Assembly (NCBI GenBank): GCA_949292795.1
Contig: CASFBR010000035.1
Location: 1-39,102 of the forward strand
From: an uncultured Eubacteriales bacterium
GTDB taxonomy: Bacteria > Bacillota > Clostridia > Lachnospirales > Lachnospiraceae
Reading direction: 5' to 3'
DNA: 39,102 nt
Shown: one piece after another, positions 1,758 to 37,596 of the stretch
Numbering within the stretch: the stretch's first letter is position 1
How the letters are laid out: each line of letters begins with the position of its first letter
Notes under the pieces: model-generated
What the model was told of the DNA's origin: nothing
The model's input: the letters and a program-made list of their open reading frames with translations, nothing else
The model's database searches: none
Position numbers and translations under genes: made by a program

Positions 1758-3011
1758 TTACTTGACAAGCTCCATGATAAAGTCATGCGTAAGGTCCATA
1801 ACCTGCCCTTCATCCATATCCGGGTCAATCACAAGCGCCGGGCCGATCTGGCAGCGCCGGCGGCCCTGCTCCGTAAAGCATCCGTCAATGGCGGTCATGG
1901 ATGTATCGTAAATATCCGTCTTGCGCCGTCCGAGGATCGTGCCGTGCAGCGCGGTCACTGTCAGGCAGCCGCCCACGATGCTCTCCACAAAGCTTATAAG
2001 CTCCAGCTTCTTTTTTTCATTAAGATAGGTATATTTCCGTTCATAAACCTGGGAAATCTCAATAAACTGCGCTTTTTTCTCTTTGCGGAAATCGGGATAG
2101 CTTCCCTCATATCCGCAGTCATGCATAACCGAATCAATACTGGTGCATATGATCCGGTGATTGCCCGCGTACACCGGAAGTACCTGCTTTAGCCGCGGAT
2201 ATTCAGAGGTCGCCGCCGAAAGGTTTGTTTTCAGCCATGTATAGAGAGTCTTGCCTTCTTTTTGGGTCAGCTGGCGTACAAAGCACTTAAAAAAGGCTTC
2301 CTTGTCCGTATCAAAATGCAGAAACTTCTGCTTGGACTCAAGCCATCCAAACTGCTCCATCAGGGCAATGCCCGCCTTTTTCTCGTTCTCGTTAAATTCC
2401 ATAGAATCAAGAACTTCTTTATCATAGTAAATATTGCTTCTGCCATATGCGATGACCGTCTTTTCGTGCAAAAACACGCCAAAGATCACATCAAGGAAGC
2501 GAACGGCCGGAAGTATCTTTTTTTCATATTCATTCAGCGAATCACTTCCAAGATACGACGCCTTTCCCAAAAGCGCCCGCATGGGCTCATCCATAAGACA
2601 CCACGGAATCTTTTGTGATCCCGGAACAATCTCCTGCGTATAAAAATTATAATTCCACAGCAGGATCGCTGAGCCGAGACTGTCGAAAACGAAAGAGCTC
2701 TCCCTCGGCGGGTCTTCATTTTTCAATATGTTATGAAATTTCAGCCTGAATACGCCCTCTCCCCGCTCAATACGGATATGATCCATCATGATCTCTGCCG
2801 GATGACGGCCATCCTCGATCAGAACATTATGAAATACAAGATTCAATGTAAAGGCTGTTGTGGATGCCACTTCGATTGAAAAATCTTTATTGCGTATTTT
2901 ATAGGGGATCACCTGACGGCTTTCCACAAGCTTTGAAAACAGCAGGATCGCCTGACGGTTCGCCCCCGTATAAAATCTGGAAAAATCCTTCAGAGTAAAT
3001 TCCATGCTCAT
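1758..3011 (-). CDS. Conserved protein of unknown function (possibly DUF3878)
   Basis: A 417-aa soluble-looking protein with no signal peptide and no obvious membrane segment. I do not recognise catalytic motifs. The overall character (FTLKDFSRFYTGANRQAI at the N-terminus, a cysteine-containing central part) recalls Lachnospiraceae proteins labelled DUF3878, but that assignment is from memory and tentative. Its start codon overlaps the maf stop as ATGA (3008-3011), so the two genes are probably translationally coupled and co-transcribed. An alternative ATG two codons downstream (3005) is better spaced from GAGG. No function should be inferred beyond association with Maf. Confidence 0.8.
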   Translation of the reverse strand: MSMEFTLKDFSRFYTGANRQAILLFSKLVESRQVIPYKIRNKDFSIEVASTTAFTLNLVFHNVLIEDGRHPAEIMMDHIRIERGEGVFRLKFHNILKNEDPPRESSFVFDSLGSAILLWNYNFYTQEIVPGSQKIPWCLMDEPMRALLGKASYLGSDSLNEYEKKILPAVRFLDVIFGVFLHEKTVIAYGRSNIYYDKEVLDSMEFNENEKKAGIALMEQFGWLESKQKFLHFDTDKEAFFKCFVRQLTQKEGKTLYTWLKTNLSAATSEYPRLKQVLPVYAGNHRIICTSIDSVMHDCGYEGSYPDFRKEKKAQFIEISQVYERKYTYLNEKKKLELISFVESIVGGCLTVTALHGTILGRRKTDIYDTSMTAIDGCFTEQGRRRCQIGPALVIDPDMDEGQVMDLTHDFIMELVK

Positions 3012-3613
3012 ACATCCTCACTCTGTCCAATAATATGCCACAGCTTTGCCAGGGGCAAGCCTACGACATTATAATAATCTCCCTCAATACCGCGGATAAA
3101 TACCGCGCCACGTCCCTGAATACCGTACCCGCCGGCCTTATCCATCGGTTCTTTGCTGCGGATATACCACTGCGCCTGTGCCTCTGAGATCGGATACATG
3201 TCCACTTTTGTACATTCACAAAACACCTGCCGCTGCGTCACGCCGTCCCTGCGCGTGTAAATAGCCACACCTGTGTACACCTCATGCCGGCGGCCGCTAA
3301 GACGCTTGAGCATTGATCGTGCATCGGCCGCATCTTTAGGCTTTCCGAGCCGGTCACCGTCACACACAACAATCGTGTCCGCACCGATCACCATAAAATC
3401 CCCGCCGTCTGTGATGTCTGCCAGCCGGGGCTCCTGACACAGCTTTTCAAAAATATCGCCCGCTTTCTGCTCCGCCAGAGACATAACGATTTCTTCCGGC
3501 GTATCTCCCCTCATCACCTCTTCTAAGGTGCTTGGAATGACCTGAAACGAAATCCCGGCCTGGCTAAGCAGCTCCCGCCGCCGCGGCGACGCTGATGCAA
3601 GTATAATCTTCAC
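3008..3613 (-). CDS. maf: Maf-like nucleoside triphosphate pyrophosphatase
   Basis: Maf proteins hydrolyse non-canonical or modified nucleoside triphosphates (dTTP/UTP, m7GTP and related classes) and were first linked to septum-formation inhibition. The N-terminal signature LASASPRRRELL, the central GADTIVVCDG loop and LGKPKD, and the C-terminal DKAGGYGIQGRGA are all present. Length (201 aa) is typical. The start is GTG at 3613, 9 nt after AAAGGAG. It is followed by the DUF3878-like gene with a 4-nt overlap. A promoter probably lies in the 120-nt gap upstream, but no element there is close to consensus. Confidence 0.93.
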   Translation of the reverse strand: MKIILASASPRRRELLSQAGISFQVIPSTLEEVMRGDTPEEIVMSLAEQKAGDIFEKLCQEPRLADITDGGDFMVIGADTIVVCDGDRLGKPKDAADARSMLKRLSGRRHEVYTGVAIYTRRDGVTQRQVFCECTKVDMYPISEAQAQWYIRSKEPMDKAGGYGIQGRGAVFIRGIEGDYYNVVGLPLAKLWHIIGQSEDV

Positions 3614-3736
3614 CTGTCAAAACTCCTTTTATGTGAAACATGTCCGGCCGCCCTGTCCGCTTCTTTTCCGCGCACGATTGCGGCCAGACTGTAATGAACA
3701 GATACATTCTATCATAAAATACGGCAAAAAAGAAGC

Positions 3737-4510
3737 TTAAAGTTTCAGTTCTGTCAGGTTTCTCCAAAAGCGTTTCGGCATCATCTGTATCTGAAGCTTT
3801 GGATTTGCCCGCTCAGAAATTTCGATATGTCTGAAAAATGTTTTCCACAGCGCGTCGAAGGACTGTTCCGCATCCGACAAACGGTTGATTGCCCCGGGAT
3901 TGACCGGCACATCCTTTGCGACAGCAAAGCCCTGTCCGGCTCTGTGGATGCAGGCCATCCGGCGCAGCTCGTCATAAATCACCCAGTTTTCTTCCGGAAA
4001 CCGGTCGGAAAAATGCTCGCCAAGCAGATACAGCTGCTGATGCTTTGGCGCGATCACAGCAAAAAGGATGCCGGATTCCAGCTCCCGAAACCGCACAAAG
4101 CCCATAAGCTTATCCGCCTCCCGGGCAACCTGACGCCACAGCCGGTATACGGCAAGCACATGATCATTGGCCAGCCGCTGGCATACCTGCGGGCCGGCGG
4201 CAAATCCGACATTTAAGAAACGATAAATAGCCTGGGCTTTTCCAGGCTCAGCAGCCATAGACGCATGGCGTACCCAGGACCATGCTTCCATGGAAAGCTT
4301 TTCCATCACCGCCCGCGCCACCGATTCCGCCTTTTTAATGTCCACAGGCACCTCAAAGGCATCCAAAAAAAGCGATGGTTCGTAGCTGTCCTTAAGCTCA
4401 ATTGTTATATATTTATGTCCGTATCGTGACAGATATGCGCTGTGAACAGCAGACAAAATGCCCTCCGTACTGTCGCTGCATAAAAGAATACGCGGTTTCT
4501 TATCTTCCAT
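3737..4510 (-). CDS. DUF4130 / TIGR03915-family DNA metabolism protein
   Basis: About 257 aa. The sequence (ILLCSDSTEGILSAVHSAY, then a middle with VCQRLANDHVLAVYRLWRQV, and C-terminal MPKRFWRNLTEL) matches my memory of TIGR03915, 'probable DNA metabolism protein', containing DUF4130. In proteobacteria this domain is often fused to a uracil-DNA glycosylase-like domain; here it stands alone. It lies 112 nt downstream of the radical SAM partner TIGR03916, the conserved gene pair. The start is placed at ATG 4510 (MEDKKPR), 5 nt after GGAGG; the in-frame upstream extension is a low-complexity stretch rich in N, Q and R and is unlikely to be translated. Biochemical activity is unknown. Expression is likely controlled by the LexA-type promoter upstream of the partner gene. 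Confidence 0.85.
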   Translation of the reverse strand: MEDKKPRILLCSDSTEGILSAVHSAYLSRYGHKYITIELKDSYEPSLFLDAFEVPVDIKKAESVARAVMEKLSMEAWSWVRHASMAAEPGKAQAIYRFLNVGFAAGPQVCQRLANDHVLAVYRLWRQVAREADKLMGFVRFRELESGILFAVIAPKHQQLYLLGEHFSDRFPEENWVIYDELRRMACIHRAGQGFAVAKDVPVNPGAINRLSDAEQSFDALWKTFFRHIEISERANPKLQIQMMPKRFWRNLTELKL

Positions 4511-4622
4511 AAGCTCCTCCGGTTGATTTCCCTGATTACGTTGATTTCCCCGATTACAATATATCCTGGCCATATGCCTGGCCGTAGCTTTCCCGTCTGC
4601 TAAAGCACACGGACATATCTGC

Positions 4623-6026
4623 CTATAGCTGGCCGGTGCAGGCGCTTTGCCGGTCCTGGACCGCTACCGGCGCTGTCACATGAAAATCGTCAAAAAGCGA
4701 CATCTGCCGGTAGGTCATCCCGCCGTCCCTTAAAGCGGCCGGAAGCCGCTCTCCGGCCTGTATCAGACTTTGGGCGACTGCATCCTCATCTATGCGGAAC
4801 CGGCCAAACATCCGGCCGCTGCAGGTAATGAAATAAACGGCGCGCTTAAGGACAACACCAAGCTTCTTAAGGTCTGCAAAATCAAGGACTGCCGACCGCC
4901 GCGCCTGGCATATTCTGCGTGCCGAGCGCACCCCGATACCGGGCACGCGCAGCAGCGTATAGTAATCCGCCCGGTTGACCTCCACCGGGAAGCCTTCCAG
5001 ATGGCGCACCGCCCAGTCACACTTCGGATCAAGCAGTGTATTAAAATTCGGCCGCGCCTCATCCAAAAGCTCGGATGCCTTAAAGCCGTAAAACCGAAGC
5101 AGCCAGTCCGCCTGATACAGCCGGTGCTCCCGAAGCAGCGGCGGCCCCTGAGGCAGCGCCGGGAGCAGGGCATCATTATTGACCGACACATAAGCGGAAT
5201 AAAAAACGCGCTTTAGTGAAAAGCGTTCATACAACGATTCGCTGACCTGCATGATCTGAAGGTCTGTCTCCGGTGTCGCCCCGATAATCATCTGCGTACT
5301 CTGCCCGGCAGGAACAAACTTCGGCGCATGACGGTACACGGTCAGTTCATTTTTGTTCTGGGTGATCCGGTTTTGAATCTGGCGCATCGGCGTCAATATC
5401 TTTTTGCGCGACTTCTGCGGCGCCAGCTTCATCAGGCTCTCGGCAGTCGGCAGCTCCAGATTGCAGCTCATGCGGTCGGCATAATAGCCGGCGCGTTCAA
5501 TGAGCATAGGGTCGGCTCCGGGAATGGCCTTTACATGAATATAACCGAAAAAATGAAACGTTTCCCGAAGCATCCTGACGGTCTCACAGATCAGCTCCAT
5601 CGTATGATCGGCATTTTTAACGACACCGGAGCTTAAGAAAAGCCCTTCAATATAATTTCTCCGGTAAAATCCCATCGTCAGCTCGCATATCTCCTCCGGC
5701 GTAAACGTAGCTCTTGGAACATCATTGCTGCGGCGGTTGATACAGTACCGGCAATCATAGACGCAGTCATTGGACAAAAGAATCTTAAGCAGAGAGATAC
5801 AGCGCCCATCCCCCGCAAAGCTGTGACAGATTCCGGCCGCCGCAGCGCTGCCGGTCCCCCTGCGTCCGTTTCTCCGGTCCACACCCGATGATGTGCAGGC
5901 CACATCATACTTGGCCGCATCCGCCAAAATTGCAAGCTTCTCCTGTATGTCCATCGTCTGCTGTATAGACGCCGCTCTTTGTATGTTTACCGGTTGTTGT
6001 ATATTTACCGCTTTTCCCGCATCCAT
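4623..6026 (-). CDS. Putative DNA modification/repair radical SAM protein (TIGR03916)
   Basis: About 467 aa. The radical SAM cluster motif CVYDCRYC (C-x3-C-x2-C, about residues 87-94) binds the 4Fe-4S cluster that cleaves S-adenosylmethionine. A C-terminal helix-hairpin-helix, VPGIGVRSARRI (about 360-372), suggests DNA binding. The segment DAAKYDVACTSSGVDRR near the N-terminus is typical of TIGR03916. The start is ATG 6026 (MDAGKA), 8 nt after GGAGG; longer in-frame starts would lie upstream of the predicted transcription start. The N-terminus carries a four-fold six-residue repeat. It is the first gene of an operon with the DUF4130 gene and is preceded by two LexA-type boxes. The substrate of the family is not known; a role in DNA repair is inferred. 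Confidence 0.88.
   Translation of the reverse strand: MDAGKAVNIQQPVNIQRAASIQQTMDIQEKLAILADAAKYDVACTSSGVDRRNGRRGTGSAAAAGICHSFAGDGRCISLLKILLSNDCVYDCRYCINRRSNDVPRATFTPEEICELTMGFYRRNYIEGLFLSSGVVKNADHTMELICETVRMLRETFHFFGYIHVKAIPGADPMLIERAGYYADRMSCNLELPTAESLMKLAPQKSRKKILTPMRQIQNRITQNKNELTVYRHAPKFVPAGQSTQMIIGATPETDLQIMQVSESLYERFSLKRVFYSAYVSVNNDALLPALPQGPPLLREHRLYQADWLLRFYGFKASELLDEARPNFNTLLDPKCDWAVRHLEGFPVEVNRADYYTLLRVPGIGVRSARRICQARRSAVLDFADLKKLGVVLKRAVYFITCSGRMFGRFRIDEDAVAQSLIQAGERLPAALRDGGMTYRQMSLFDDFHVTAPVAVQDRQSACTGQL
5937..6008 (-). repeat. 18-bp coding repeats in the radical SAM gene N-terminus
   Basis: Four diverged six-residue units (VNIQQP, VNIQRA, ASIQQT, MDIQEK) precede the conserved family N-terminus. 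They look like a local tandem expansion. Confidence 0.65.
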
Positions 6027-6049
6027 CGCTTCATCCTCCAGTGAATTTT

Positions 6050-6063
6050 CAAACATGTGTTCT
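6050..6063 (-). promoter_or_regulatory. LexA (SOS) box 1, downstream of -10
   Basis: Minus strand AGAACACATGTTTG matches the Bacillus/clostridial LexA consensus CGAACRNRYGTTYG at 13 of 14 positions; only the first C differs. It overlaps the predicted transcription start of the radical SAM operon. Confidence 0.7.
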
Positions 6064-6069
6064 GTTTTT

Positions 6070-6098
6070 AGTATAACATTAGAACATATGTTTGTAAA
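6070..6098 (-). promoter_or_regulatory. Promoter of the radical SAM/DUF4130 operon
   Basis: Minus strand TTTACA (6093-6098), 17-nt spacer, TATACT (6070-6075): a good sigma-A promoter. The predicted start is near 6063. One LexA-type box fills the spacer and a second sits on the start site. Confidence 0.75.
6081..6094 (+). promoter_or_regulatory. LexA (SOS) box 2, in the promoter spacer
   Basis: AGAACATATGTTTG on the plus strand matches CGAACRNRYGTTYG at 13 of 14 positions. Its centre is 31 bp from that of box 1, about three helical turns, so both would face the same side of the DNA. Confidence 0.75.
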
Positions 6099-6120
6099 CA
6101 TCTTTTTTAGAATTTCGCTT

Positions 6121-6145
6121 ACGCAACGCAGTTTCCGATACATAT
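6121..6145. repeat. Degenerate copy of the hairpin repeat
   Basis: GTTTCCGATACATATAAATA resembles the right arm of the element at 6240-6281 (GTTTCCGATGCAATAAAAAA). The left arm is not preserved. Confidence 0.4.
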
Positions 6146-6172
6146 AAATAAAAAGTTCCGCCTGCGGAACTT
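6146..6172 (-). terminator. Terminator of the rimP-to-ribF operon
   Basis: 8-bp stem AAGTTCCG/CGGAACTT with a 4-nt loop, followed on the minus strand by TTTATTT. It lies about 180 nt after ribF, beyond a hairpin repeat. Confidence 0.65.
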
Positions 6173-6239
6173 AAGCGCCAAGCGCGGTCGCTTACGCGAC
6201 AATTTTCTTATCGCGCGCGTGCGCATCCCTGGCGAAGCC
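6173..6239. other. GC-rich intergenic hairpins
   Basis: Contains the perfect small hairpin GTCGC-TTAC-GCGAC (6187-6200) and an alternating GC run (about 6211-6224). It forms part of the 327-bp gap between the radical SAM operon and ribF. No gene is evident. Confidence 0.45.
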
Positions 6240-6281
6240 TTTTTTATTGCATCGAAACGCGGTTTCCGATGCAATAAAAAA
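6240..6281. repeat. Long hairpin repeat, copy 1
   Basis: T6 then ATTGCATCG pairs with CGATGCAAT then A6. An inner AAAC/GTTT stem is offset by one bulged base and the loop is GCG. Because A residues, not T, follow the stem on both strands, it is not a standard terminator. Homologous to 37555-37596, where the stem base pairs differ in a compensating way. Confidence 0.75.
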
Positions 6282-6353
6282 CATACCTGCAAATGTATCA
6301 CTATCGTACCTTTACAGATATGTCTTTATGGCATTTTTTAACGTATGGTGCGG

Positions 6354-7349
6354 TCACAGCTTTTCCTGTGCATCCGTGCAGACATCGCTTTTATGCTGCT
6401 TCATATATTCCAGAGAATTTTTCATATCCCGGTGCATCTGTGCTTTCAGTGCTTCCAGGCTTTCAAATTTTTTCTCAGGCCGCGCAAAGTGGTAAAGCTG
6501 TACCTCGATCTGACGGCCGTAAATATTTCCATCAAAGCCATGGACATAGGTTTCCACCCTCCGGTTCTGATGCGTTGCTACGGTAGGGTTATGCCCGATA
6601 TTTGTAACCGCCGGATAAAGTCTGCGGTTGATGGTCGCCGCGGAAGCATAGACACCGTTGGGCGGCAAAAGCTTGGACGGCGCCGGCTCAAGATTGGCCG
6701 TAGGCATCCCGATCGTCCGTCCGATCTCACGGCCGTGGACGACCTCTCCGATAATGGTATATGGCATTCCAAGCATCTGGTTGGCCGTCTCAATCTCCCC
6801 CCGGGAAATCGCCGCACGGATGAGCGTCGCACTGATTTCCACTTCATCCTCCACGGTCCGGCCATCGGCATCCTTTTGAGACAGGATCGTGCGCACCTTC
6901 GGACAAATATGCGCGTTATAGCCAAGCGGCAGGCTCATTCCCAGCAGCAGGTCCGTATTACCCCGGCGTTCGCGGCCAAACCGGAAATCTTCTCCAACGA
7001 CAATGTGACGGGCTCCAAGACGTTCAATGAGCACTTCCCGGATAAAATCCGCAGCCTCCATATGTGCCGTTTCCTCCGTAAAAGGGTACTCGATGAGCAC
7101 ATCCACACCCATGCGCCCGGCCAGCACCCGGCGCTCATCCGAAGTATAGATCAGCTCCGGCTCTTTGCCACTGAGCATACAGGCAGGATTATAATTAAAC
7201 GTCAGGACAACGGATGTCATTTTATGGCTTTTATAGCTGTTGATCTTTTTGATCAGCGATTGGTGGCCAAGATGCAGACCGTCAAACTTGCCGATGGCCA
7301 CGGCTGTATTTTCCATACGAATCTCTTTCGTACCTGAAATAAAAATCAT
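6354..7349 (-). CDS. ribF: Bifunctional riboflavin kinase/FAD synthetase
   Basis: Converts riboflavin to FMN and FMN to FAD in the cytoplasm. The N-terminal nucleotidyltransferase has GKFDGLHLGHQ (about residues 20-30). The C-terminal flavokinase has GREIGRTIGMPTANL and PPNGVYA (from about residue 205). Length (about 331 aa) is near normal. The start is ATG 7349 (MIFISGTKEI), preceded by GGAG at 10 nt; the upstream in-frame extension overlaps truB and is rejected. It is the last gene of the operon, 13 nt after truB. The rpsO gene that often follows ribF is absent here. Confidence 0.94.
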   Translation of the reverse strand: MIFISGTKEIRMENTAVAIGKFDGLHLGHQSLIKKINSYKSHKMTSVVLTFNYNPACMLSGKEPELIYTSDERRVLAGRMGVDVLIEYPFTEETAHMEAADFIREVLIERLGARHIVVGEDFRFGRERRGNTDLLLGMSLPLGYNAHICPKVRTILSQKDADGRTVEDEVEISATLIRAAISRGEIETANQMLGMPYTIIGEVVHGREIGRTIGMPTANLEPAPSKLLPPNGVYASAATINRRLYPAVTNIGHNPTVATHQNRRVETYVHGFDGNIYGRQIEVQLYHFARPEKKFESLEALKAQMHRDMKNSLEYMKQHKSDVCTDAQEKL

Positions 7350-25398: not shown

Positions 25399-28300
25399 TT
25401 ATAATCCCAGATCAAAAATTGATAACTGGTTGCTTTGAGGCAGCCCGTCTAAAATATGCTGAGCCGCCAGTGTCTCGATGACCGACGCCCCCACGCCGGA
25501 GCGCTGCCGGATGTCATCGCGGGAAATGTATTTTCCCCCTTTCCCGGCCTCGTAGAGAAGCTCTCCCGCAGAATCCGCGATCCCTTCAATCGAAGAAAAC
25601 GGCGGGCGCAGCTTGCCGTCCTCGATCAAAAACTTTGTTGCCGCAGATTTATATAAGTCTACCGGAAGAAATTCAAAGCCCCGGGCATACATTTCCTGAA
25701 CAAGACGCATATCCTTTAAGGTTGCCTCCTCCTTTTGGGAAAGCTTCGGATTCGACTTGTAATTTTTGATATTCCGGTCAAGAACCTCCTTGCCCTGGCA
25801 CATGAGCTCATAGTTAAAGGATGTGGCACGGATACTGAAAAAGGCTGCGTAAAAGGCCAGCGGCTCATGGATTTTAAACCAGGCGATACGAAAGCCCATC
25901 ATAACATAGGCTACCGCATGTGCTTTCGGGAACATATATTTGATCTTTTTGCATGACCAGATATACCAGTCCGGCACATCGTGCTCCTTCATAGCCGCCT
26001 CCCACTCCGGCGTCAGTCCTTTGCCCTTTCGCACACTCTCCATGATCTTAAAGGAAAGCTCCGATTCCAGCCCCTTATTGATCAGGTAGATCATAATATC
26101 GTCACGGGTACAGATCGCCGTGGAAATCGTCGCTGTCCCGTCCATGATCAGCTTCTGGGCATTGCCAAGCCATACATCGGTGCCGTGGGAAAGCCCCGCG
26201 ATACGGGCCAGGTCGGAAAAGGCCGTCGGATGGGTATCCTTAAGCATCTGCATGGCAAAATCGGTGCCAAACTCCGGCACTCCAAGGGAGCCAAGCTCTG
26301 TGCCCCCGATGTCCTCCGGGCTGATCCCAAGTGCATCCAGTCCATGAAACAATGACAGTACGTCGGGGTCATCCAGGCGGATTTTTGTGGCATCCACTCC
26401 GGTAATGTCCTCAAGCATACGGATCATTGTGGGATCATCGTGCCCGAGTATATCAAGCTTTAACAGGTTATGGTCAATGGAATGGTAATCAAAATGGGTC
26501 GTTACTGTGGTCGTCGTCATATCATTGGCCGGATGCTGCACCGGAGTAAAGGTATAAATCTCCATTCCCATAGGCAGCACGACAATACCGCCGGGATGCT
26601 GACCGCTTGTACGCCGCACGCCGACGCAGCCCTTGGACATGCGCTCGATCTCACAGCTTCGCTTATACATATCGTGATCTTCACAATAGTGCATCGCATA
26701 GCCGTAGGCCGTCTTATCAGCCAGGCCGCCGACGGTTCCCGCGCGGAAGGTCTGGCCGTAGCCGAAAATAACCTCCGTATAGCTGTGGGCTTTACTCTGA
26801 TATTCTCCGGAAAAGTTCAGGTCAATGTCCGGCTCCTTGTTCCCTTTAAAGCCAAGAAACGTCTCAAATGGAATATCATGGCCCTCCTTGGACAGCGGCT
26901 GCCCGCATACCGGACAGAGCCTGTCCTCCATATCGCAGCCGGAGCGTCCGGAAAAGCTTTTTACATAATCCGAATCAAAGTCCACATATTTACAGTTTGG
27001 ACACAGGTAATGGGCCGGCAGGGAATTAACCTCTGTGATACCGGCCATATAGGCCGCAAAGGACGAACCGACCGAACCGCGGGAGCCGACCAGATAGCCG
27101 TCGGCTACGGATTTCCACACAAGCTTCTGGGCAATGATATACATCACCGCAAAGCCATTGCTGATAATGGAGTTTAATTCCCGCTCCAGGCGCTCGGACA
27201 CAATATCCGGCAGCTTTTCCCCGTAAAGCTCATGGGCCTTCTCATAGCAGATCGTTCTTAAGTTTTCATCGGAATTTTCAATGACCGGCGGGCACTTATC
27301 CGGACTTACCGGTGATATTTTTTCGACCATATCGGCGATGAGATTCGTGTTGGTCACAACGACCTCCTCCGCCTTTTCAGCGCCCAGATACGAAAACTCC
27401 TCCAGCATTTCCTCCGTTGTGCGCAAATACAGCGGCGGCTGATGATCCGCATCGTCAAAGCCCTTGCCGTACATGATCAGACGCCGGTACAGCTCATCCT
27501 CGGGATTTAAAAAATGTACGTCGCAGGTGGCGCATACCGGCTTTTCAAACATTTCCCCAAGCTTTACGATCTGCCGGTTAAACTCCCTTAAGTCTTCCTC
27601 ACTGTGAACATCCGGATGCTTCGGATCATCGATCATAAACTGATTATTGCCAATAGGCTGTATTTCCAGATAATCGTAAAAACGAATAATCCTTGCAATC
27701 TCCTGCGGCGGACGTTTATCCACCAGCGCCCTGAAAAGCTCCCCGGCTTCGCAGGCCGAGCCGATGATCAGACCGTCCCGGTATTTTAAAAGCAGGCTTT
27801 TGGGAATCCTCGGGCGCCTTGCATAATACGTCAGATGTGCCTCCGATACAAGCCGGTAAAGATTGATCCGGCCGGTCTCATTTTTCACAAGAATAATACA
27901 GTGAAACGAGCGTGCCTTCTGGATCGCATTGACCGACATATGGCTCATGTCATTTAAGGCTGTCAGGTCGCAGACATTCTGCTCTTTCAGCCGTTTGATA
28001 AACTTTACAAACACATGGGCTGTCGCCTCGGCATCATCCACCGCCCGGTGATGATTTTCAAGGACACAGTCCATCGCCTCCACAACAGTGTCCAGCTTGT
28101 AATTTTTAAGATCCGGAAGCAGCGCGCGGGCAATCCCCAGCGTGTCCACCGTCACGAAGGGCCGGGCGATCCCAAGCTGCTCACAATTATAGCGGATAAA
28201 GCTCATATCAAACTCGGCATTGTGCGCAACCATCATGCAGCCCTCGCAAAATGCCATAAACTCCGGCAAAACCTGAGAAATATCAGGGGCATCCACAACC

Positions 28301-29910
28301 ATGGCATCATTGATGCCTGTAAGCTTTTCGATTTCCAGAGGAATGGGTACGCCGGGATTGACAAAGGCCGAAAAGCGGTCCACGATCTGCCCCTCAACGA
28401 CTTTGACAGCACCGATCTCGATAATATGGTCATTCATATAGCTAAAGCCTGTTGTTTCTATATCAAAAACAACAAAATCACTGTCCAGGCTTTCCCCGTG
28501 TCCATTATCCACGATGGGCTTTAGGTCGTCCACAAGATAAGCCTCACAGCCATAAATCACCTTAAACGGATTTTTTACAGCAGCCAGCTCTTCCTTTGTG
28601 GCATCCGGGTGAGCTTTTTCATATTGTTTTTTATAATCCTTATCCAGATCTTCAATAGCATGATTGGCATCAGGAAATGCCTGCACAACGCCATGATCGG
28701 TAATGGCGATGGCCGGATGCCCCCAGGAGGCAGCAGTTTTTACCATCGTCTTGCAGTCCGCCACACTGTCCATATCACTCATCATCGTATGGGCGTGCAG
28801 CTCCACGCGCTTTAGGGCACATGTGTCCATGCGCTTTTTCCGAAAATCCGGGATCGTCTTGATCCCGACGACCGAACCGATGGAAATCTCCCGGTCATAT
28901 TTATCGTAAACTGCCATTCCTTTAAGCTTTAAAAAGGCATTGGTTTTTACATGGGACAGCACATCGGGCAGCATATCATTTTTCACAAACAGCTTCACCT
29001 TGATCGTATCGGTAAAATCCGTAAGCTTAAAGATCACAAGCGTCTTTTCATTGCGGATTTCACGGGTCTCTACCTTGTCATCTTTTGTAAAGGCAAACAC
29101 CTGTCCGTGTACGACCACATCGCCGATCTCATCGGTAATATCGCTGATCGGCGTAATATCCCCCTCAAAGCCCCGGCCATAGAAAATATCCTTATCATCC
29201 ACAGCCTTTTTCGGCGTATAGCTTTCCCTGCGAACAAAAGGCTTTTTCGCCTCCGCTGCCTTTTTCGCCCCGCCGTCGCTGCCTTGCTCTGTTTCCTGTG
29301 CCTGCGCGTGTGCACTCTCCTTTTTCGCCTTTTCATAATCGCTGACGATCTGGGCGATTTCTTTTGCGAGGGATGCCTCCGCCATCTTTTTATGGCGGCT
29401 CTCCTCCCCGGGCGTCAGCTCCACACGCACGTCCAGATTAAAATCAAAGCGCTCCTGATAGATCGTAATGAGCTTTGTCTTTACCTTTTCCAGCTTTGTC
29501 GCTGTGATAAAATTATCCTCTGAGGTCAGCTTCAGCGATGAATTGCTGACAAATTCTTTTTTGGCCCAGTGAAAAATATTGGCCTCAAGCTCGCTGTCCT
29601 CCCGCAGCTCATCCTCAAAGGAATCCTCGTAAAGGAAAAACAGCCGTTCCGGCGTGTACATATCCGACAGCCGGTAATGCTCGATCAGGCGTATCTCGAT
29701 CTGGGCATCGTTAAACATCTGGGCCTTTATCTCCTGCTCCACCTGATGAATACTTTTTCTGTCGATCAGGTATTCGCTTTCGATATGCACCTTCAGACGT
29801 TTTTTAACCTTTGCCGCGGTCACCTTATCAATGGTGACCCGTTCAAACACATCGGTCAGAGCCGGCGGCAGCAAAAGGTCCGGAAAAACCTGAAAAAACG
29901 GTGTGCTCAT
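25399..29910 (-). CDS. polC: DNA polymerase III alpha subunit, PolC type
   Basis: Main replicative polymerase of low-GC Gram-positives, 1503 aa. Order of domains: N-terminal domain; OB fold near 267 ([18 protein letters not shown]); PHP domain from about 365 ([15 protein letters not shown]); DEDD proofreading exonuclease inserted from about 478 ([20 protein letters not shown]); remainder of PHP; a four-cysteine zinc site (CPNCKY...CPVCGQ, about 968-1006); palm with [15 protein letters not shown] (about 1025); and a C-terminal helix-hairpin-helix and tail. A lysine/alanine-rich linker lies near 190-225. The start overlaps the ispG stop as ATGA, with GGGGAG 7 nt upstream, so the two genes are coupled. 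Confidence 0.97.
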
Positions 29911-37554: not shown

Positions 37555-37596
37555 TTTTTAATTGCATAGAAACGCCGTTTCCTATGCAATTAAAAA
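37555..37596. repeat. Long hairpin repeat, copy 2
   Basis: TTTTTAATTGCATAG pairs with CTATGCAATTAAAAA; inner AAAC/GTTT pairing with one bulge; loop GCC. Same layout as 6240-6281, but the C-G pair there is replaced by A-T here. A partial third arm (GTTTTCTATGCAATAAAAAA) follows at 37602-37621. Confidence 0.75.

Follow-up and report, generated by a model that had tools for sequence, protein, structure and literature searches.

The window, that is, the whole 39,102-nucleotide (nt) stretch of contig CASFBR010000035.1 (assembly GCA_949292795.1) from an uncultured Eubacteriales bacterium of the family Lachnospiraceae, contains an operon for a radical S-adenosylmethionine (SAM) protein of family TIGR03916 and a DUF4130 protein of family TIGR03915. 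Upstream of the first gene we observed two LexA-type operators on a single predicted promoter, and operators of the same type recur at nearly all orthologous loci of the host family and at most of those sampled elsewhere in the class Clostridia. The best overall explanation, which we consider likely, is that a LexA-repressed SOS promoter drives a two-gene DNA-damage cassette. LexA control of the pair, taken by itself and judged from the sequence comparisons below, is very probable.

Candidate sites were scored against CGAACRNRYGTTYG, a 14-bp LexA consensus of the Gram-positive type taken from an earlier, sequence-only reading of this DNA. Operator 1 lies in the promoter spacer and on the edge of the −35 element, centred at about −25.5 relative to the predicted start, and operator 2 covers the predicted start site with its centre at about +5.5, so that the centres are 31 bp apart. 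The sequence-only reading had described two 14-bp sites, each agreeing with the consensus at 13 of 14 positions, on a TTTACA/TATACT promoter with a 17-nt spacer, one in the spacer and one on the start; we recover the coordinates, the single mismatches, the spacing and the placement, the promoter being a predicted one. Its assignment of the operon to TIGR03916 and TIGR03915 also holds, with both proteins well over the family cut-offs. We place the start of the first gene at ATG 6026 because a GGAGG stands at 6039-6035 and the match to TIGR03916 does not start until 5948, and both operators therefore lie upstream of the gene. The start of the longest open frame, at 6143, would put both operators inside the gene, and ATG 6026 is preferred to it.

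The promoter-like pair agrees with the consensus at 10 of 12 positions on the minus strand and is the sole promoter-like match in a scan of positions 3500-6400. As shuffles of this region average 2.6 such matches, we treat it as a predicted pattern match rather than a mapped start. Upstream on the same strand lies ribF, whose frame ends at 6354, and this arrangement would allow LexA to bind while expression came mainly from other promoters or from ribF read-through, with SOS control reduced to a modest tuning; the promoter and terminator scans are, moreover, pattern matches (10 terminator-like sites in the scanned region versus 3.2 in shuffles, several of them within genes). We regard such an arrangement as improbable, given that a terminator-like hairpin with a T-run separates ribF from the promoter, that 3500-6400 holds no second promoter-like site and that loci of the family repeatedly show double operators about their predicted promoters.

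Table 1. Features of the operon and its surroundings in the window (HMM, hidden Markov model match; HhH, helix-hairpin-helix).
Feature	Position	Strand	Basis and remarks
LexA-type operator 1	6081-6094	+	AGAACATATGTTTG; 1 mismatch to CGAACRNRYGTTYG (13/14)
LexA-type operator 2	6050-6063	-	AGAACACATGTTTG; 1 mismatch to CGAACRNRYGTTYG (13/14)
-35-like element TTTACA	6093-6098	-	Pattern match
-10-like element TATACT	6070-6075	-	Pattern match; 17-nt spacer, TG before -10
Shine-Dalgarno-like GGAGG	6035-6039	-	By eye
TIGR03916 radical SAM protein, 467 aa from ATG 6026	4623-6026	-	HMM; CxxxCxxC; C-terminal HhH-like stretch
TIGR03915/DUF4130 protein, 278 aa, second gene	3737-4573	-	HMM
Terminator-like hairpin and T-run	6153-6172	-	Pattern match; between ribF frame and the pair's promoter
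Maf family nucleotide pyrophosphatase	3008-3613	-	123 nt downstream of the pair

LexA control of the pair is strongly supported by conservation within the host family, where TIGR03916 scores over its cut-off in 57 of 100 genomes. From these we fetched 58 loci, of which 57, the window's own included, could be scanned (56 genomes, with G045 contributing twice; L057 was left out because its contig ends inside the gene), and we searched the 250 nt before the domain start for a box with at most two mismatches to CGAACRNRYGTTYG. Such a box is present in 56 of the 57 loci, and in 47 of them with at most one mismatch; with the window set aside, the counts are 55 of 56 and 46, and 48 loci have two or more boxes. 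Dinucleotide shuffles (ten rounds) gave 1.7 of 57 on average and 30 permuted patterns 1.5 of 57, and among 837 further segments of these loci, most of them coding, only 2.5% contained a box.

The arrangement of the boxes is likewise stereotyped. Two or more boxes at least 12 nt apart occur at 49 of the 57 loci, two of these 49 pairs overlapping by one base. Operators were placed relative to the best promoter prediction, made by a basic promoter finder that took no account of the boxes. An operator lies over the start site at 50 of 57 loci, in the spacer at 24 and near −51 at 18, versus 8.5, 4.6 and 1.6 for uniform random placement, in bins that were set after the positions had been seen. The start-site operator is combined with a spacer operator at 21 loci and with one near −51 at 17, and the window has the spacer-plus-start form. 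In an alignment of 56 family loci anchored at the proximal box, the high conservation inside the box arises by construction; the informative part is the sequence around it, which is hardly conserved, at 0.18-0.28 bits per position.

Across the class, 109 of 291 genomes have TIGR03916 over the cut-off. Outside the host family, 93 of 104 loci carry a box, 78 with at most one mismatch, and just 14 carry two or more, on account of which the double operator is largely a trait of the host family in this sample. The 104 loci include two from G302 and leave out L134 (126 nt of upstream sequence), L071 (same family as the host), G365 (starting at contig base 1) and G119 (in two pieces). By majority, the box is present in 35 of 39 families, many of them represented by a single locus, and it occurs in 2.8% of 1544 control segments. 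The scan of upstream regions of orthologues, named in the sequence-only reading as a check, thus came out in its favour in both family and class.

The host genome has one match to TIGR00498, at 227.9 bits, a LexA in which the cleavage and catalytic motifs are present and look intact by eye. The sequence marks of LexA-regulon membership are found together at this locus: operators matching the consensus at 13 of 14 positions, a promoter-blocking placement (spacer and −35 element plus start site, on a predicted promoter), an apparently cleavable LexA in the same genome and conservation of the operator at orthologues in both scans. The proposal that the operon is under SOS control gains support from this conservation and from the apparently intact LexA. 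In undamaged cells, LexA dimers on both operators would exclude RNA polymerase; upon DNA damage, RecA filaments would trigger self-cleavage of LexA and the operon would be switched on.

At the host lexA locus itself, five boxes with at most two mismatches lie within 100 nt upstream of the gene (L031 1324-1423, G000:C132). These boxes fall within a 173-aa frame on the opposite strand; judged by eye, a start with its own GGAGG-like site stands about 70 nt ahead of the first box and suggests that the divergent gene does not reach as far as the boxes. Clusters of boxes also occur at the lexA loci of two more genomes of the host family (L273 and L278) and at some lexA loci outside it (L270, L275, L276 and L280).

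In other lineages, the same radical SAM gene is preceded by other LexA-type motifs. We looked at 15 alphaproteobacterial loci and one betaproteobacterial locus drawn from 158 plasmid records, a biased set with mostly one locus per genus. An exact GTTC-N7-GTTC stands in the 200 nt upstream of the gene at all 15 alphaproteobacterial loci, between −17 and −108; of 217 control segments taken from elsewhere in the first nine loci, 1 contains the exact motif and 22 contain it with at most one mismatch. The control genome of Caulobacter crescentus also has a match to TIGR03916. The sole betaproteobacterium, Caballeronia, has CTGTATAAACATACAG at −29, a site of the E. coli type, which we take to be the motif in use in this genus. 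Clostridial plasmid records from Acetoanaerobium and Pusillibacter carry Gram-positive boxes, and Gemmatirosa (L265) was not counted because the match began inside the gene. GTTC-N7-GTTC is the alphaproteobacterial LexA motif according to PMC8565304, and the E. coli-type consensus is given in PMC4234289, which together with PMC4689574, likewise on LexA of C. difficile, served as background on the motifs (these and the other papers cited are drawn on from excerpts). That one gene family appears to stand under unrelated LexA-type motifs according to lineage is, at the level of motif comparison, the strongest single argument for functional SOS control, and motifs of several kinds at one gene point to lesions that are present during the SOS response.

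Two phage-labelled records were also noted. In one (L268, MT835514.1), the radical SAM gene has two Gram-positive LexA-type boxes upstream. In the other (L269, CAKLQH020000003.1), it is flanked by annotated glyS and glyQ, and the phage label is doubtful because of these flanks.

Several observations weigh against a LexA-controlled damage cassette. Within the window, 96 sites match CGAACRNRYGTTYG with at most three mismatches, compared with 84.3 ± 10.4 in shuffles; genome-wide, there are 30 rows (27 distinct places) with at most one mismatch versus 70 rows for the backward pattern, and AGAACANRTGTTYG gives 15 matches versus 16 backward. The latter pattern was derived from the two window sites, which makes ranking by it circular, and the conservation counts use CGAACRNRYGTTYG. 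Among the class loci, 11 of 104 lack a box; eight or nine of these fall in four families, one of which has a box at one of six loci and the other three at none of four. LexA exceeds its cut-off in 7 of 12 box-less and 12 of 14 box-bearing genomes, all chosen by hand (p = 0.19), and absence of LexA as the reason for the box-less loci is suggestive only. In a set of 80 named contigs that overlaps the family and class sets, 61 have a box and 19 do not. No box of the motifs tried was found in the Subdoligranulum clostridial plasmid record, nor in Bacteroides finegoldii, Spirosoma or an Acinetobacter phage-labelled record. On the side of the proteins, the Pfam Radical_SAM match of the window protein falls below its cut-off (24.4 versus 29.5), as does its HHH_3 match, and the chemistry proposed for the pair would be read from sequence motifs.

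Single-match statistics are weak and uninformative for judging the sites. The significance of the window sites comes instead from the presence of two sites on one promoter and from their conservation. Chance matches or functionless relics, to which the backward control might seem to point in that single matches are no commoner than it, have a close to negligible probability: the conservation test contradicts them at the family and class loci alike, and clustered positions amid hardly conserved surroundings speak the same way.

Of the 27 distinct genomic places, we looked at 21, with 15 falling within open frames and 6 outside; the other six places are the two window sites, one site in the window frame 25399-29910 and three upstream of lexA. 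Of the six outside frames, one precedes a RecA-like frame by 43 nt and another a UvrA-like frame by about 300 nt, both frames identified by eye, and two (L322 and L326) have no recognisable target. The last two of the six are a box at L325 1501-1514 (G000:C130), which stands 69 nt before a GyrB/ParE-type topoisomerase gene assigned by HMM, and one at L327 681-694 (G000:C131), which stands 16 nt before a DUF1848 frame, likewise assigned by HMM, that reaches the contig end; the DUF1848 gene is a possible further SOS target by its upstream box. LexA control has been reported for parE in Streptomyces (PMC9380542) and for parCE in Bacteroidetes (PMC8565304). A one-mismatch AGAACANRTGTTYG site abuts a RuvA-like frame, also identified by eye.

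These sites also bear on which protein reads the palindromes. A motif alone cannot name its reader, and several genomes of the class have more than one LexA-like match, so that a paralogue of LexA, or a phage-type repressor of the S24 family, could be imagined to bind here and to tie the operon to a non-SOS signal. We find this very improbable. The host has a single TIGR00498 match, boxes of the same type stand upstream of both lexA and the RecA-like gene, and a shared reader other than LexA would leave the different LexA-type motifs of the alpha- and betaproteobacterial loci unexplained.

LexA being the probable regulator, we turn to what it would regulate. The radical SAM protein scores 683.2 bits against TIGR03916 (cut-off 343.5), and the second protein 235.7 bits against TIGR03915 (cut-off 112.25) and 176.2 against PF13566 (cut-off 27). 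The CxxxCxxC motif of the radical SAM cluster corresponds to C88, C92 and C95, which are invariant in 22 aligned sequences together with further residues that include C67, H68 and C76; in DUF4130, nine columns are invariant in 23 sequences, E152, R161 and R191 among them. In a search of solved structures, the radical SAM protein returned just a ComEA-related HhH chain, through its C-terminal stretch (E 4.1e-5), plus a weak match of the thiamin-synthesis type, and for DUF4130 there was no credible relative (best E 0.041). At E 1e-3, NCBIfam gives the window protein just TIGR03916 and a weak ThiH match; no spore photoproduct lyase (SplB/SPL) model is among these, and we do not assign the protein to that family.

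The two genes travel together. TIGR03915 exceeds its cut-off in exactly the 57 family genomes in which TIGR03916 does (compared by eye), and the other 43 have neither over cut-off, though there is a 231-bit TIGR03916 fragment in G025 and a weak, 77-bit match to TIGR03915 in G073. By their coordinates, the genes adjoin each other on the same strand in all of the 57 genomes but G031, where they are split between contig ends (56 of 57). By tblastn of the neighbouring genes, DUF4130 lies on the same strand at 118 of 141 parsed radical SAM loci; the remainder include contig ends and diverged partners. Not one of the 100 family genomes has UdgX (TIGR03914) over cut-off; three have weak matches and the window's genome has none, and we accordingly do not class the locus with the UdgX-type uracil-DNA cassettes. 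The lack of UdgX over cut-off in the host family suggests a shared core that does not include uracil binding. At 11 of the 15 alphaproteobacterial loci, the annotation names the following gene UdgX (the other four have no annotated next gene in view), and two second-gene proteins, one alpha- and one betaproteobacterial, are fusions of DUF4130 with uracil-DNA glycosylase (UDG) by HMM, both of them matching TIGR03914.

That the pair acts on damaged DNA is reasonably probable, in view of its regulation, the HhH-like stretch and the UDG fusion. It is rather unlikely that the pair is SOS-regulated and serves some purpose other than repair, such as base modification or work on nucleotides or RNA under stress. 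The NCBI family name says merely 'putative DNA modification/repair', the literature consulted gives no activity and no SplB model was matched at E 1e-3, all of which would be compatible with a non-repair role; the HhH-like stretch (below the Pfam cut-off, yet at the E value above to a ComEA-related chain), the DUF4130-UDG-family fusion in the two proteobacterial proteins tested and the three kinds of LexA-type motif at this gene argue for repair instead. For a repair cassette, the most likely course would be that an adenosyl radical formed by the radical SAM enzyme, with its HhH-like stretch, reverses or trims a base or cross-link lesion, and DUF4130 would be its constant partner. Radical-based repair over other chemistry is a guess, and one that falls a little short of an even chance. 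More tentatively still, the pair might be a core SOS enzyme independent of uracil glycosylase, placed under LexA in at least three lineages with unrelated operators and devoted to radical-based repair of a lesion outside the reach of SplB and excision repair. The LexA-type motifs at this gene make a vague family label testable.

Of the neighbouring features, the Maf gene downstream may be co-transcribed with the pair, since no terminator-like site is listed between them; we do not claim it as a member of the cassette. A palindromic element, GCATNGAAACGNNGTTTCCNATGC, has exact copies at window positions 6249-6272 and 37564-37587 (0 in 100 shuffles) and occurs genome-wide at 29 places with at most two mismatches, whereas its backward pattern occurs at 0. 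It has the look of a dispersed family of hairpin repeats.

COG4277 is presumably the same family as TIGR03916. The pair is widespread in the family and class genomes counted above, yet we found no functional study of it in the literature consulted on TIGR03916, DUF4130, COG4277 and the repair radical SAM protein. In Acinetobacter Tol 5, desiccation upregulates a gene of this name (PMC13130816); one so named also has the value 1.585 in an F. nucleatum coculture/monoculture table (PMC9848294) and one appears in a repair-gene table of a Sphingomonas (PMC9611098), and the excerpt of PMC1839093 has nothing on the TIGR03916 gene. A LexA-controlled radical SAM gene of Streptomyces, vnz_31145, is described in PMC9380542, from the available part of which its family could not be told.

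Among the closest known systems is CAC3343-CAC3344 of Clostridium acetobutylicum, for which LexA control was proposed in 2013 from footprinting and expression data (PMC3828012). Like the window pair, it is a predicted LexA target, and CAC3344 has a putative DUF4130 identity; the study, in the part available, covers one species by prediction and microarray and contains neither a double operator nor a cross-phylum comparison. The COG1573-COG4277 (uracil-DNA glycosylase) operon is SOS-regulated in Bacteroidetes, according to PMC8565304, which also cites a UDG system for Verrucomicrobia and Alphaproteobacteria. Its radical SAM protein is apparently of the same family and under SOS control through unrelated motifs, but it is paired with a UDG, whereas the window pair has DUF4130 alone in a family devoid of UdgX over cut-off. 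SplB (COG1533) is also a radical SAM DNA-repair enzyme that is SOS-regulated in several species (PMC8565304); it differs in that none of its models matches the window protein, and the same paper lists SplB and COG4277 separately. The 2013 SRAP/ImuB-C paper (PMC3765255) had tied DUF4130 to genes for radical SAM and UDG proteins by gene-neighbourhood inference, with no operator analysis of this pair in the excerpt. Given the prediction of PMC3828012 and the COG1573-COG4277 operon of PMC8565304, the idea of SOS control is less novel than first thought, and the present work builds on a prediction already in print and does not originate one. What it adds to these systems is breadth, a stereotyped double operator and a cassette that does without UdgX.
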